Assembly: GCF_002929745.1 (NCBI RefSeq)
Contig: NZ_PJIQ01000001.1
Coordinates: forward strand, 1-64,000
Length of the DNA stretch: 64,000 nucleotides
Reading direction: 5' to 3'
DNA from: Arthrobacter sp. B1805
Lineage (GTDB): Bacteria; Actinomycetota; Actinomycetes; Actinomycetales; Micrococcaceae
Part shown: positions 8,099 to 13,217 of the stretch, piece after piece
Layout of the letters: each line of letters begins with the position of its first letter
Position numbering within the stretch: the stretch's first letter is position 1
Notes under the pieces: generated by a model
The model's database searches: none
The model's input: only the letters and a program-made list of their open reading frames with translations
Told to the model about the DNA's origin: nothing
Made by a program: the position numbers and the translations under genes

Positions 8099-9361
8099 TC
8101 AGCCCTCGACGACCGCGATCTCGTTCGGCGTACCGGGCAGTTCCTCGGACGAGGTGATCTTCCCCGTCGCGAGGTCGACCGCGTGGAGCTTCTTCGTGGC
8201 GGGTTCCGTGACGTACGCCGTGCCACCGACGACCTTGAGGGCCGGGTGCGGATCCTGCCACTCGACAGGGCCTTCCCAGGCGTCGATGACTGGCAGGGAG
8301 TCGGTGATCTCGCCGGTCTCGGGGTCCAAGGAGTGCAGGGCTCCGTCGGAGGCGAGGATGAGCACCTCGTCGTTCGGTCCGCGGGCCACGTCGCGGAAGG
8401 TGTACTCGACTCCCTCGGGCAGATCGATGACCTTCATGGTCTTCGTCTCGGTGTCGATGAGCGTGAGCTGGTGCAGGAGGTAGCCCTCGAGGTCGGGGTC
8501 CGACTTGTAGTCGCCGGCGATGATGGGGCTGGTCTCGCTGACGTACGCGTTGCCCATGCGGCCGAACTTGTCGGGGGCGTCGATCTTGGTGATCTCGCCG
8601 TTGTCGTAGACGAGTGCGCCGTCGCTGCAGCCGAAGACGACGACCTCGTTCTTCGCCGTGCCTTCACCGTGGACGGAGGGGCACTGGTCGCTGGTGGCGA
8701 CCTCGTTGCCGTCGGCGTCGAGAACCTTGATGCCGGAGCGGCTCTCGGAATTGCCGACGGTGGTCAGGAAGGTGCCGTCTTCAAGGACGATCGAGACGCC
8801 GTGGTGGGCCTCCTCGCCCTCGATGGTCTCGGTTGCCGGAAGGCTTTCGGGATCCTCGAGGAGATCATCGGTCGTGTAAATGGTGGTGTCGCTGGTGCCG
8901 TCTGCGTAGAGGATGGTCTTGTCGCCGTGCTGCACCACGTGGCCAGCGGTGTCGGCCTCGAACATCAGGTCCGTGAGCTTCGGTTCCGCCTGCTGGGAGC
9001 CGGAGGAATCGGTCCACGTGCCGAGGTCCAGGACCTGGAAACCCTCGGGCACGGTGACGAGAGCGTGACGCCCGTCGCCTGCGGGATTGAGGCGCGTGAA
9101 GCCCTCGATGGGCATGTCTCCCTCAAGCTCCATCGTGGTGCCGTCGAGGACGAGGATCCCGCCATCGTAGGTCAGGGCAACACGGGGCGTCTGCTTGCCG
9201 GCCGCAGCAGCTGACGTGCTGGTGTCCGGCGCAGCGGAGCCTTCGGCTGCCGGTTCGGAGGAGGAGCCGCAGGCCGTCATGAGCAGGGCGGAGGTGGCGA
9301 CCGTGGCGGCAAGGGCAAGGCGCCGTGGGCGTTTCGTCAGAGGAATCGCTGTCATCATCAT
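8099..9361 (-). CDS. aztD: AztD-like zinc chaperone lipoprotein, paralogue 1
   Basis: The 420-residue lipoprotein (lipobox LMTAC, Cys31) has a beta-propeller body. It belongs to the AztD family, periplasmic/extracellular zinc chaperones that pass zinc to AztC. It keeps GHVVQHGD (His141, His145), EAHHGVSIVL (His186/187), CPSVHGEG (Cys227, His231) and FGCSDGAL (Cys245). At about residues 113-125, where paralogue 2 has an acidic histidine loop, it reads GTWTDSSGSQQ with no histidine. Three ATGs occur at 9361, 9358 and 9355; the AGAAAG site fits the third best. It is last in the aztBDCD operon and ends at the 8051-8080 hairpin. Confidence 0.85.
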   Translation of the reverse strand: MMMTAIPLTKRPRRLALAATVATSALLMTACGSSSEPAAEGSAAPDTSTSAAAAGKQTPRVALTYDGGILVLDGTTMELEGDMPIEGFTRLNPAGDGRHALVTVPEGFQVLDLGTWTDSSGSQQAEPKLTDLMFEADTAGHVVQHGDKTILYADGTSDTTIYTTDDLLEDPESLPATETIEGEEAHHGVSIVLEDGTFLTTVGNSESRSGIKVLDADGNEVATSDQCPSVHGEGTAKNEVVVFGCSDGALVYDNGEITKIDAPDKFGRMGNAYVSETSPIIAGDYKSDPDLEGYLLHQLTLIDTETKTMKVIDLPEGVEYTFRDVARGPNDEVLILASDGALHSLDPETGEITDSLPVIDAWEGPVEWQDPHPALKVVGGTAYVTEPATKKLHAVDLATGKITSSEELPGTPNEIAVVEG

Positions 9362-9381
9362 TCTTTCTGTGTTCTGGACCC

Positions 9382-10302
9382 TCAAGGAGAGAGCCCGGTG
9401 GCGATGCGTTCGGTATTGGTGCGCATCATGGCGAGGTACGTGTCCGCACCCTCGCCCGGGTTCGTAAGGGATTCGGTGAAGAGCTCGACGACGTCGACGT
9501 CGATGTTCGCGCCGTCCGCGAGGACCTGGACGAGCCGGTCCGGCTGGGAGGACTCGGCGAAGATCGTGCTGACGTTCGCCTCCTCGATGGCCGCGACGAG
9601 GTCGCGGAGATCTGAGGCACTGGGGGAGGCAAGGGTAGTGCCGCCCGGAATGACGGCGCCGATGATGCGGAAGTCATACCGGTCGGCGAGGTAGCCGAAC
9701 ACGTGGTGGTTGGTCACCAGGTTCCGCCGGTCGGCAGGGATGGCTCCGAAGGCGTCTGCCATGGACGCATCGAGGCCGGTCAGTTCACCCCGGTAGGCGT
9801 CCGCCGACGCGTCGATGGTGTCGGCATCGATTCCGTCGATGGTCCGCACCCGCTGCTGCAGTTCGTCCACCACGTCGACCATGAGCCCCGGATCCGTCCA
9901 GAAGTGGGGGTCGGGTACTCCGGCGGACTCGCCGTCGTCGTATTCGAGGGGCTCGATCGTGTCGCCCGCGACGAGCACGGGGACATCGGCCGATTGCGCA
10001 CTGTCGATGTGTTGCTGCAGTCCCTCCTCGAGTCCGAGGCCGTTGGTGACGATGAGGTCGGCCTGCCGCATCATCGCGCCGTCCTGCGCCGAGATCTCGA
10101 AGGAGTGCGGGTCCGCGTTTGCTTGCATGAGAACCCGCACGTCAGCTTCCTCCCCGACAACATTCGAGACGACGTCGCCAAGAATGTTCGTGGTCACCAC
10201 GATGACCGGCTCGTCCGACCCTGCGGCGGCACATCCCGAAGTCCCGAGGAGAGTCGTGGCAGCCAGGATGAGGGCCAGATACTGCCGGCGCGTCCTGTTC
10301 AT
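9382..10302 (-). CDS. aztC: AztC zinc-binding protein of ABC transporter
   Basis: The 306-residue cluster A-I solute-binding protein has a lipobox (LLGTSGC, Cys24). Candidate zinc ligands are in ANADPHSFE, VPDPHFWTDP and VTNHHVFGYL, plus a C-terminal acidic residue in GEGADTYLAMM. The long His-rich loop of ZnuA proteins is absent, as in AztC proteins that rely on AztD for loading. Its ATG overlaps the end of the upstream aztD-like gene by 4 nt (ATGA), indicating coupled translation. Confidence 0.93.
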   Translation of the reverse strand: MNRTRRQYLALILAATTLLGTSGCAAAGSDEPVIVVTTNILGDVVSNVVGEEADVRVLMQANADPHSFEISAQDGAMMRQADLIVTNGLGLEEGLQQHIDSAQSADVPVLVAGDTIEPLEYDDGESAGVPDPHFWTDPGLMVDVVDELQQRVRTIDGIDADTIDASADAYRGELTGLDASMADAFGAIPADRRNLVTNHHVFGYLADRYDFRIIGAVIPGGTTLASPSASDLRDLVAAIEEANVSTIFAESSQPDRLVQVLADGANIDVDVVELFTESLTNPGEGADTYLAMMRTNTERIATGLSP

Positions 10303-11582
10303 CGGCCGACCTCGACCATGTGCGCCGGGACGGTGTCGGTGTCGAAGGTGCGGGCGATACGGGCGTTGTCGGCGAAGTCGATCTCGAACAGGGTTCGCTC
10401 CGCGGGGGCGTTGAGGTATGCGCGCTGCTGGTCAGTAGTCAGCTCGACCCCGGCCAGGAGCGCAGGGTTAGCCAGGGTCTGTGGCAGGAGTGGTTCGGTA
10501 GCGGCGATTGTTGCACCGGTTTCGGCGATCAGGACGAGGACACGGCCGTTGTCGGCAAGGGCGACAACATGCCCTTCTCGGTCATCGACGGCCGAGACCT
10601 GCAGCAAGGGGACGTCGGTGGGAATGAACTGCCAGGAACGCTCCCGGGTATCGAGCAGCCATGCACCCTGGTTTCCGGCGACGGCGGCGACGGTAGGGCG
10701 GCCTTCGCGGGCCCGGAACTCCGTGGCTTTCGGAGAGCTCATTTCCGCCGGGTACGGAATGCGTTCGTAGACGACCTCGTCGGCTTCGAGCGTCGCCAGG
10801 AGCGCGCCGTCGTCGCAGCCGATGACGGTGCCGACCGATGTCGTGATGCTGCCCTGGGCGTCCGCGCAGTCGGCGGTCGCCCCGTCGATGGCTTGGCCGT
10901 CCTTGTCGTACGCCTGCACGGACGCCGCCGTCCCCGCGCTGTCCGGTTCGGTAAGGAGGGTGACGTCCGAGAGGGGGACGAGGACCCCGGGGTGCGGGTC
11001 CGTGGACAGATCGGCGCGGACACGGATCTCGCCCTTGGCGAGAGCGTCGTTGTCGAGCACGGTCGCCTTGCCGCTGTCGGGGAAGTAGACGCCGGTGGCC
11101 GACGAGCCGGCGGTGACGATGGCTTCGCCTTCACCCTTGATGGTGCCGATGGTCTTGGGCTCACCGCTGTAGTAGTGGAAGTGGTCCTCGTGGTCCCAGG
11201 TCCACATGCCGCTGTCGACGATCGTCATGGTGCCGGTGGTCGCGGACGAGGCGAAGAGGTACCGCCCGTCCGTGGAGGTGGCGCTGACCTGCGGCACGTC
11301 GCCGACCGAGGTGGTTGTTTCGTCGGCCAGGTTCAGCAGATCGATTCGGCCGTCGGTGTCCACGCTCATCAGGTGAAGCTGTGGCTCGGCGACCTCGGTG
11401 GATCCTTCGAGAGTTCCGTGGCCGTCCCCGATCTGGGCGGGAGCGGAACTGGACGCGGCTGACGGATTGCCCGTCGCGTCCGTCGCGGACTCGGACTGAC
11501 TGGCCGAATCGGCGGTGGAGCAGGAGGTGAGGGACAGGGCGAGCAGGGGGAAGCAGAGCAGGAGGGTTTTAGGCGTTCGCAC
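10299..11582 (-). CDS. aztD: AztD-like zinc chaperone lipoprotein, paralogue 2
   Basis: A GTG at 11582 (VRTPKTLLLC) with AGAAAG upstream starts the lipoprotein signal (LSLTSC, Cys21); the longer frame runs into aztB and is rejected. The 427-residue propeller has the same length and blade order as paralogue 1. It has the loop WTWDHEDHFHYY (about residues 127-138), rich in His/Asp and a likely zinc pick-up or transfer site. It has lost the other site: GHVVQH is GEAIVT, CPSVHG is CADAQG and HHG is HPG. It overlaps aztB by 14 nt upstream and aztC by 4 nt downstream. Confidence 0.82.
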   Translation of the reverse strand: MRTPKTLLLCFPLLALSLTSCSTADSASQSESATDATGNPSAASSSAPAQIGDGHGTLEGSTEVAEPQLHLMSVDTDGRIDLLNLADETTTSVGDVPQVSATSTDGRYLFASSATTGTMTIVDSGMWTWDHEDHFHYYSGEPKTIGTIKGEGEAIVTAGSSATGVYFPDSGKATVLDNDALAKGEIRVRADLSTDPHPGVLVPLSDVTLLTEPDSAGTAASVQAYDKDGQAIDGATADCADAQGSITTSVGTVIGCDDGALLATLEADEVVYERIPYPAEMSSPKATEFRAREGRPTVAAVAGNQGAWLLDTRERSWQFIPTDVPLLQVSAVDDREGHVVALADNGRVLVLIAETGATIAATEPLLPQTLANPALLAGVELTTDQQRAYLNAPAERTLFEIDFADNARIARTFDTDTVPAHMVEVGR

Positions 11583-12480
11583 GAAGGGCTTTCTGTGATG
11601 GACGTACCGGCACAGGACCGGCGGAACGATCGACGTTCTGTGAAGAACGGTCAAAAGAGGTGGTGCGTCGACGGGTGATACCGCGGATGCTGCTCGACAT
11701 GGCTGCGCACGCGATGGCGGCAAGGGCTATCGACGCGCCGGCCGCCGAGCCGTAGTGCCAGGACGCGAGCAGCCCGAGAAGCACTGACAGCGCGCCGATC
11801 AGGGCTGCGAGTGCCATGGTGCTCGGGATGCGGGAGGTCCAGGGGGCGGCTGCGACAGCCGGGGCGAGGAGCAGCCCGATGACCAGCAGCGCGCCTACCG
11901 CCTGATAGGAAGCGACGACGGCGAGCGTCACGAGTCCCACGAGGAGCACCTGGGCCACGCGTGGCCTCAACCCCATGACCTGGGCGATCCGGCGGTCGAA
12001 CACGAGCGCAACGAAGGCCCGGTGGAACGTCGCGGCGACGAGGATCGTCAGGAGGAGTGCTCCTGCCAGCAGCCAGACGCCGGCGGACTCGATGGCGAGG
12101 ACGTCGCCGAACAGGATCGCGGTCGCATCCGTGGCGAAGCTGCGTGAGTGCGAGATGATGATGACGCCGGCGGCCAGCATGCCGACGAAGAAGAGACCGA
12201 TGCTCGTGTCGTGTGACAGCCGGCCCCTCCGTGCCAGGAAGCTGACCCCGAGGCTCATGACGATCGCGCTCGCCGCCGCTCCGAGGATGACGGGTACGCC
12301 TGCGAGAGTCGCGAGGGCGACGCCCGGCAGCATGCCGTGGGCCATGGCCTCACCGAGGAAGGCCATGCCGCGAATGACGACCCAGGTTCCCACGACGGCG
12401 CAGATGGCAGCGCACAGCGATCCTCCGATGAGGGCGCGCAGCATGAAATCTGCGGAGAAGGGTTCGAAGAGCAGGGTCAC
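11569..12480 (-). CDS. aztB: AztB zinc ABC transporter permease
   Basis: The 303-residue ABC-3 family permease has about eight membrane helices and the family motif RGMAFLGEAMAHGMLPGVALA near residues 37-57. The helix series ASYQAVGALLVIGLLLAPAVAA is the ABC-3 core. The C-terminus is a polar tail (RRRTTSFDRSSQNVDRSAG). The start is a GTG at 12480, close to a possible -10 element, so translation may be leaderless. It is the first gene of the leftward operon, divergent from aztA. Confidence 0.93.
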   Translation of the reverse strand: MTLLFEPFSADFMLRALIGGSLCAAICAVVGTWVVIRGMAFLGEAMAHGMLPGVALATLAGVPVILGAAASAIVMSLGVSFLARRGRLSHDTSIGLFFVGMLAAGVIIISHSRSFATDATAILFGDVLAIESAGVWLLAGALLLTILVAATFHRAFVALVFDRRIAQVMGLRPRVAQVLLVGLVTLAVVASYQAVGALLVIGLLLAPAVAAAPWTSRIPSTMALAALIGALSVLLGLLASWHYGSAAGASIALAAIACAAMSSSIRGITRRRTTSFDRSSQNVDRSAGPVPVRPSQKALRANA

Positions 12481-12499: not shown

Positions 12500-12533
12500 T
12501 TGAGTCTCATTCTCAACATGCTAGATTCGGACC
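12500..12533. promoter_or_regulatory. Zur-like operator and divergent aztA/aztB promoters
   Basis: TGAGTCTCATTCTCA (12501-12515) is an imperfect palindrome with TTGAG/CTCAA arms. On the minus strand it matches 11 of 15 positions of the actinobacterial Zur box TGAAAATGATTTTCA, by my alignment. For aztA, TTGAGT (12500-12505) and TAGATT (12522-12527) are 16 nt apart, and the -10 ends 6 nt before the ATG, predicting a leaderless mRNA. On the other strand TTGAGA and TAGGGT serve aztB. A repressor here would cover both -35 elements. Confidence 0.65.
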
Positions 12534-13217
12534 ATGCTCCTCGCCCGATCACACCCCGTCCTGCCACCAGCAGGGGCAGCGTGCCCGCTCGTCCTCGACG
12601 ATGTGTGGTTCGACCACGACGGCGTCGAGGCACTCCGGGGCGTCTCGCTGACGGTCGATGCCGGTGCCGTCACTGCCGTGGCAGGGGCGAACGGCTCCGG
12701 CAAATCGACGCTGCTGGCCCTGCTCGCCGGGCTGCTCGTTCCGCGCAGGGGCACCGTCGTCCTTCCTCGGAGGCGCAGCACCGCACTGGTGGTGCAGCGC
12801 AGCGAGGTGCCGGACCGAATGCCGCTCACGGTCCGTGATGCTGTGGCGATGGGCCGCTGGGCGCAGGCCGGTCTGTTGAGGCGCCTGCGTCCGGAGGACC
12901 GGCGGATCATCGACGAGTGCATCGGGCTCGTCGGGCTCGACGGTCATCAGGGGCGCCCGCTGGGGGCGCTCTCGGGCGGACAGCGGCAGCGTGCGTTCCT
13001 TGCGCAGGGGCTCGCCCAGCGTGCCGATGTCCTCCTCCTCGACGAACCCACGACAGGACTCGACGCGGCTACGCGGTCCGTGGTCGCCGACGTCCTGGTG
13101 GCCGAGAGGGCCCGCGGGGCGACCGTCGTCTGCGTATCGCACGACGACGTCGCCCTGGGTGTCGCCGACCACCTCATCGTGCTCGACTCCGGGCGCGTGG
13201 TCCCGGGCGCTCCCTAG
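12534..13217 (+). CDS. aztA: AztA zinc ABC transporter ATPase
   Basis: The 227-residue ATPase has Walker A GANGSGKST (about residues 52-60), a Q-loop near VVQRSEVPD, the signature LSGGQRQR (about 145-152), Walker B VLLLDEP and the switch His in VSHDD. It pairs with AztB and AztC encoded divergently. The N-terminus is short and the ATG lies 6 nt behind a -10-like TAGATT with no ribosome site, consistent with leaderless translation. Confidence 0.95.
   Translation: MLLARSHPVLPPAGAACPLVLDDVWFDHDGVEALRGVSLTVDAGAVTAVAGANGSGKSTLLALLAGLLVPRRGTVVLPRRRSTALVVQRSEVPDRMPLTVRDAVAMGRWAQAGLLRRLRPEDRRIIDECIGLVGLDGHQGRPLGALSGGQRQRAFLAQGLAQRADVLLLDEPTTGLDAATRSVVADVLVAERARGATVVCVSHDDVALGVADHLIVLDSGRVVPGAP

Follow-up and report, generated by a model that had tools for sequence, protein, structure and literature searches.

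The AztD proteins of known structure come from Paracoccus denitrificans (6ck1) and Citrobacter koseri (6cmk and 6n01), and the sections of the structure paper drawn on here (PMC6689063) describe two zinc sites in these chaperones. Site 1 lies in the pore and is formed by His124, His167 and His218, and site 2 lies on a hairpin and is formed by His99, His102, Asp104 and the C-terminal His408 (Paracoccus numbering). According to the same sections, these ligands are kept in at least 95% of the homologs in that study, apart from His408, which is kept in only 68.1%. In Paracoccus, the solute-binding protein AztC receives zinc from site 2 alone, while site 1 holds a tight, labile zinc that reaches neither AztC nor site 2 of another molecule, and the authors treat the role of site 1 as an open question. 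The transfer from AztD to AztC also needs the D-loop of AztC and its three histidines, as stated in parts of PMC7463823 and PMC7731109. Here we describe a 64,000-nucleotide stretch from Arthrobacter sp. B1805 (contig NZ_PJIQ01000001.1, positions 1 to 64,000), hereafter called the window, in which a zinc operon encodes two AztD-like lipoproteins, D1 and D2. Sequence alignment confirms that D1 holds the pore site and has lost the hairpin site, and that the reverse is the case for D2.

D1 is encoded on the reverse strand at 8099..9385 (428 residues from the TTG at 9385, with an ATG near 9361 as another possible start), and D2 on the same strand at 10299..11582 (427 residues from the GTG at 11582, in a frame that stays open to 11723). 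A preliminary description of this DNA had proposed two secreted AztD propeller lipoproteins of nearly equal length in the zinc operon, and structure prediction of each protein alone agrees with it. The AlphaFold models, built on 47-row alignments, have predicted local distance difference test scores of 90.1 for D1 and 92.7 for D2. The nine top matches in PDB are AztD in both cases, being chains of 6n01, 6cmk and 6ck1 with query template modeling (TM) scores of 0.72-0.77 for D1, and AztD with query-normalised TM scores of 0.76-0.79 for D2; these Foldseek matches place the proteins at the level of the family only. Against the NCBIfam model for AztD (NF038015, cut-off 400 bits), D1 passes with 449.8 bits and D2 fails with 65.5 bits. 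The two proteins are about 20% identical in sequence, and both columns of the conserved cysteine pair (the Cys214-Cys231 disulfide) contain cysteine in 138/138 D1 and 129/129 D2 proteins. D1 and D2 are the only members found by an AztD family search of the window genome, and a search of the same genome with D1 revealed no further AztD, the remaining matches having E-values of 0.1 or worse.

The ligands were assigned by alignment with both solved AztDs and with L123, which is closely related to the Paracoccus protein. Their conservation was followed in the best 80 loci from an AztC search of named genomes, which are close relatives by design and were chosen by AztC rather than by the sites, together with the window. 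In D1, His149, His195 and His239 align to the site-1 ligands His124, His167 and His218, and no histidine is placed at the site-2 columns. His149 is part of the motif GHVVQH (8927..8944, reverse strand), His195 is the second histidine of HHG (8798..8806, reverse strand), and His239 is part of CPSVHG (8666..8683, reverse strand), which also contains Cys235 of the conserved cysteine pair; each of these ligands is kept in 81/81 actinobacterial rows. In D2, His178, His181 and His183 in the hairpin WTWDHEDHFHYY (11169..11204, reverse strand) align to site-2 positions 99, 102 and 104, with a histidine in place of Asp104 as in the actinobacterial single-copy AztDs, and the hairpin His/Asp residues are kept in all 78 rows that are complete (3 of the 81 are incomplete). 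D2 has no histidine at the three site-1 columns and reads GEAIVT, DPHPG and CADAQG where D1 has GHVVQH, HHG and CPSVHG; H244 of DPHPG aligns with His166, which is not a ligand. A complete site 2 is found in 0/81 D1 rows, two of which (L012 and L068) have one stray histidine each. The reciprocal loss of motifs noticed in the preliminary description is thus borne out, and the motifs correspond to the published zinc ligands.

In the model of D2, the three histidines are located at residues 104, 107 and 109 (model numbering), on and between the strands 99-103 and 108-112 of the hairpin, and Glu110 (model residue 36; 11394..11396, reverse strand) is placed on the N-terminal strand. These predicted positions fit the published make-up of site 2, and the conservation counts make Glu110 a candidate for an additional site-2 ligand. 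The corresponding column contains glutamic acid in 128/129 site-2-only proteins, in 93/102 two-site proteins from outside the alphaproteobacteria and in 13/138 site-1-only D1 proteins, and in 1/5 of the alphaproteobacterial proteins. The glutamic acid has disappeared along with the hairpin in D1, which supports a genuine loss of the entire site 2. A mere displacement of the site-1 motif in D2 was also considered and is rejected. Of the 129 site-2-only D2 proteins, 6 have a histidine no more than four positions away from the first site-1 column, 66 from the second and 3 from the third. Five of the 129 have such a histidine at two or more columns, and none (0/129) has one near all three. Separately, seven of the 138 site-1-only D1 proteins contain a stretch of the form H(G/E)DHW (L172, L173, L178, L018, L038, L074 and L080), which is absent from D1 in the window. 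In the three proteins where it was located (L172, L173 and L178), it falls between the second and third site-1 ligands, and it is possibly a new metal site.

The same arrangement recurs widely. A D2-type gene precedes and a D1-type gene follows aztC in 80/80 of the best AztC loci, with a partial D2 in L017, L030 and L073. Evenly drawn genomes were searched in addition, with matches to the AztD family model in 20/396 genomes drawn by phylum, and matches to a mixed profile in 154/297 genomes drawn by order and 103/394 drawn by class. Loci were read for about 70 of the 154 and for 91 of the 103, the remaining 12 being 11 weak matches and G453. Among 265 aligned AztD-like proteins, 101 have only site 1, 98 only site 2 and 64 both, in addition to one broken single copy (L179) and one truncated protein; a single stray histidine occurs at a site-2 column in 3/101 site-1-only proteins and at a site-1 column in 3/98 site-2-only proteins.

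When counted as loci that share no AztD sequence, there are 122 split D2-aztC-D1 loci, a few of which have a D2 with one stray histidine at a site-1 column and one of which (L240) has a D2 broken in two frames. One further split locus (L247) has an extra D1; this second site-1-only D1 adjoins aztA, and the genome also has a full split operon. Another 17 split D2-D1 pairs are without aztC, and for seven more split pairs the two genes were read from different short loci (G246, G334, G050, G107, G343, G257 and G074). At L264 the contig stops before D1 is reached, and at L265 AztC is shortened and D1 is missing. All pairs fully in view beside aztC are split, with the exception of five from one genus (L157-L161), in which each copy has both sites, and of L224, which combines a two-site D2 with a site-1-only D1. 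The four single-copy AztDs that adjoin aztC (L104-L107) each have both sites, as do 76/79 of the single D1-type loci with no AztC in view, the others being the site-1-only L213 and L268 and the broken L179.

Taken together, 130/135 of the D1-type proteins with a D2 neighbor in view contain only site 1, while 72/76 of those without one contain both sites (211 proteins in all). For two of the four unpaired exceptions, L090 and L092, a D2 is encoded elsewhere in the genome (L110 and L113). These counts support the view that the loss of a site goes with pairing. The earlier suggestion that the split would be confined to duplicated loci does not hold as worded, the exceptions being L213, L268, L261 and L270 and the six paired loci that are unsplit or half split. 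L213 and L268 are from genomes of one family that also contain a two-site AztD elsewhere (L272 and L269). L261 and L270 have a His-His-Asp site 2, no complete site 1 and no azt neighbors, and G844, the genome of L270, contains a split operon of the usual kind as well.

To place the two proteins, we inferred a maximum-likelihood phylogeny of 97 rows from which the ligand columns had been removed. The site-2-only D2 proteins form one clade (support 100/97), and its successive neighbors are the D2 of the unsplit genus (100/94), the D2 of L224 (100/98) and the single-copy two-site AztDs beside aztC (97/93). D1 sits in a separate deep clade together with stand-alone two-site AztDs and one haloarchaeal AztD. 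The latter, L119 from a Haloterrigena plasmid, has both sites and an acidic, histidine-rich tail, groups with the actinobacterial D1 proteins and is annotated as a hypothetical protein. The phylogeny indicates that D1 and D2 are two ancient AztD lineages. A recent tandem duplication was considered as well and is rejected, given the identity of about 20% and the grouping of D2 and D1 with different two-site AztDs. The preliminary description had called the split a subfunctionalisation; the split itself is real and the loss goes with pairing, but the two genes are not fresh duplicates.

The ancestor was probably a two-site protein, which the preliminary description had made a condition of its idea, because both sites are present in the two AztDs of known structure and in almost every stand-alone AztD examined. 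According to the trees, site 1 was lost a single time, in D2, and site 2 several times, in D1; parsimony gives two changes for site 1 and five for site 2, counts that do not separate gain from loss. A single loss of site 2 for all D1 proteins is disfavoured, since holding the 25 site-1-only rows together gives p = 0.008 in the approximately unbiased test, which is suggestive only, as the group, with L213 and L268 among its members, was named post hoc from the tree. In the unsplit genus, D1 branches with the genus' own stand-alone AztD (L190), so this genus may have refilled the D1 position recently and need not be primitive. The several switches of site 2 in the D1 clade, and the broken or missing D2 or D1 at L073, L240 and L265, would be expected if each of two AztDs had simply drifted until it lost one dispensable site, with their pairing irrelevant. 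We regard such degeneration as very improbable, since among the pairs examined none lacks the same site in both of its members, the site that is left does not vary in the set chosen by AztC (81/81 and 78/78), and the orphan pairs described below are still split and preceded by a Zur box.

The orphan pairs came to light in a genus (g7) in which 94/198 genomes had a match, and which is shown to be Microbacterium by the identity of two of its loci with loci from named genomes of that genus. A further 20 loci of the genus were selected, mostly for scores like those of G645, and the number of orphans is therefore not a frequency. At 16 of these loci D1 comes immediately after D2, and the 11 kb examined contain neither aztA nor aztB nor aztC; the other four contain the full operon. 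With G645, such orphan D2-D1 pairs are present in 17 genomes of the genus, identically split (L284 at 9003-11507, and L305-L320). No AztC orthologue was found in these 17 genomes, where the top matches score 38.7-120.1 bits, compared with 358.2 bits in the control G1066. A Zur-like box is located immediately before D2 in 17/17 orphan pairs, matching 11-13 of 15 positions compared with 7-10 in shuffles. No common partner was found among the few neighboring open reading frames checked at G645, L305, L310, L313 and L320. The retention of the D2-D1 pair without AztABC is the strongest new result, and it suggests that the two proteins probably work together and not through AztC alone. Because 17 genomes keep the split, Zur-boxed pair without AztC, D1 and D2 probably constitute one unit.

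The window contains a similar box, the palindrome TGAGTCTCATTCTCA between aztA and aztB (12501..12515), which agrees at 11/15 positions with TGAAAATGATTTTCA, a Zur-box consensus of the Streptomyces type. Around the divergent aztA and aztB starts, 64/75 loci score at least 11/15, compared with 1/75 of the base-shuffled regions, and no box of the Corynebacterium glutamicum type was found in the window. D1 and D2 are very likely under Zur control, judging from these boxes.

We consider it reasonably probable that a two-protein version has replaced the single two-site AztD in most azt operons of the Actinomycetes, with D2 as donor and D1 as reservoir in one unit. Both are surface lipoproteins, and they would share the work of one two-site AztD. 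D2, with its exposed hairpin site, would most likely be the donor of zinc to AztC, because site 2 alone donates in Paracoccus and because D2 is located directly upstream of aztC, like the single-copy AztD. By analogy with the Paracoccus mutant that lacks site 2, the pore site of D1 would bind zinc that is not given to AztC, and D1 would most likely capture or buffer zinc for D2. The sequences themselves show the split, its distribution, the order of branching, the retention as pairs and the boxes; we infer zinc binding by D1 or D2, the donor role of D2, the reservoir role of D1 and contact between the two proteins from comparison with the characterized systems. The relay that the preliminary description had envisaged is not claimed, because the Paracoccus mutants gave no transfer and the actinobacterial AztC is without the histidine-rich loop. 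Since this loop is required in Paracoccus, the donor step cannot be quite identical.

Several observations weigh against the two-protein reading. A zinc-loaded site-1-only mutant of the Paracoccus protein, mixed with an apo site-2-only mutant and AztC, gave no transfer, according to the relevant section of PMC6689063. In 81 split loci, the D-loop of AztC contains no histidine in 47, one in 32 and two in 2, with none in the corresponding segment of the window AztC, compared with at least four in the alphaproteobacterial L123 and L122, and the loop is also poor in histidine at the single-copy actinobacterial loci L104-L107. L213, L268, L261 and L270 have lost one site with no D2 or D1 alongside, and the distant homolog L273 has neither site complete. 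Furthermore, the backbone and inner branches of the D1 clade are weakly supported, and an independent-pairs test of pairing against site loss gives p = 1, the informative pairs being too few.

Some of these observations fit an independent division of labor, in which D2 feeds AztC, D1 stores zinc or supplies it to other zinc enzymes outside the cell membrane, and neither protein hands zinc to its partner. The behavior of site 1 in Paracoccus is consistent with this, as are the genomes of L213 and L268, which keep a site-1-only protein and in which no D2 or AztC orthologue was found (best AztC matches of 96 and 103 bits; the L268 contig is 3.6 kb long). We think of this division as possible, but it is the less probable account in light of the 17 genomes that keep D2 and D1 together without AztC.

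The same genomes are what would be expected if D2 and D1 formed a complex, in which the hairpin of D2 is docked in the pore of D1 and a single composite zinc site arises from the two half-sites. In the Citrobacter crystal, as described in part of PMC6689063, the site-2 hairpin inserts into the pore of the neighboring chain and creates a hybrid two-zinc site, the geometry expected of a D2-D1 complex, and after the split one partner has only the pore site and the other only the hairpin. However, the authors judged the hybrid site to be most likely a crystal artefact and describe AztD as monomeric in solution, and we therefore rate such a complex as unlikely. Also unlikely, in our estimate, is its stronger form, an obligate D1-D2 device for zinc in which the hairpin of D2 would enter the pore of D1 to create a shared or hand-over site, and which in some Microbacterium would serve as a Zur-controlled surface scavenger or reservoir free of AztABC.

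Returning to the gene layout, aztC, which encodes the zinc solute-binding protein, is flanked by D2 and D1 (9382..10302, reverse strand; NCBIfam AztC 380.2 bits, cut-off 350). The permease gene aztB is located at 11569..12480 on the reverse strand (AztB 341.7 bits, cut-off 280), and the ATPase gene aztA is divergent at 12534..13217 on the forward strand (AztA 232.6 bits, cut-off 220). AztA, AztB, AztC and D1 thus all score above their NCBIfam cut-offs, and D2 is the only product of the operon below. The codons for the C-terminus of D2, E-V-G-R (10299-10310), share nucleotides with the probable ribosome site of aztC and with its ATGA start. Within the E-x-G-R motif, the GAG codon is used in 118/138 and the ATGA overlap occurs in 90/138 D2 genes, and the terminal Gly-Arg is invariant in the best 80 loci and the window but gone from the 16 orphan D2 and from L284. 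The motif was considered as a contact for zinc or AztC and set aside, because its overlap with the start signals of aztC and its loss from the orphans make a constraint at the DNA level the simpler explanation. In a plasmid record of Streptomyces clavuligerus, the gene at the D2 position is labelled 'hypothetical protein' and that at the D1 position 'zinc metallochaperone AztD'; the gene called hypothetical in Streptomyces azt operons is a conserved AztD relative. Two other records call for comment. The AztD frame on pSymB of Sinorhizobium meliloti 2011 is broken between consecutive in-frame open reading frames of 286 and 114 residues (L121, 4712-4714), and a contig titled Vibrio cholerae 35D (L011) contains an Arthrobacter-type azt operon with an AztC 80% identical to that of the window, and is probably mislabelled or contaminated.

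No description of two AztDs in one operon was found in the open literature, most subscription papers lying outside this scope. The consulted sections of the structure paper (PMC6689063) speak of no paralogue or second copy, and those of PMC6103462 are likewise silent on two AztDs. Judged from its listing, the open literature that treats the zinc AztD at length concerns Paracoccus or Citrobacter. In Corynebacterium glutamicum, Cg0040 is described in part of PMC2823685 as a putative secreted protein encoded in the Zur-regulated cg0040-cg0043, beside a zinc ABC transporter. The control genome of this species has one match to the AztD model, and from the description and this genome-level match we infer that Cg0040 is an AztD. 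The word AztD is absent from the passages of the Corynebacterium literature that were searched.

The D2-D1 pair can exist without its usual transporter, and in it the two sites occur naturally on different proteins, each open to purification and deletion, so that the role of site 1 can be tested directly. The AztDs of Paracoccus denitrificans and Citrobacter koseri have in common with D1 and D2 the fold, the two sets of ligands, the aztA, aztB and aztC partners, Zur control and the cysteine pair. However, both sites are present in one protein there, while D1 and D2 have one site each, and the actinobacterial site 2 is nearly always His-His-His rather than His-His-Asp. D2 also lacks an equivalent of the C-terminal His408, and the D-loop of AztC in the window lacks histidine. 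Among the Paracoccus AztD mutants, D2 resembles the one without site 1 and D1 the one without site 2, with the difference that D1 and D2 are natural, ancient and paired. The stand-alone two-site AztDs of Actinomycetes (most of L127-L156, some beside a ZnuA-like solute-binding protein) belong to the same clade as D1, but unlike D1 they have kept both sites and have no D2 alongside.

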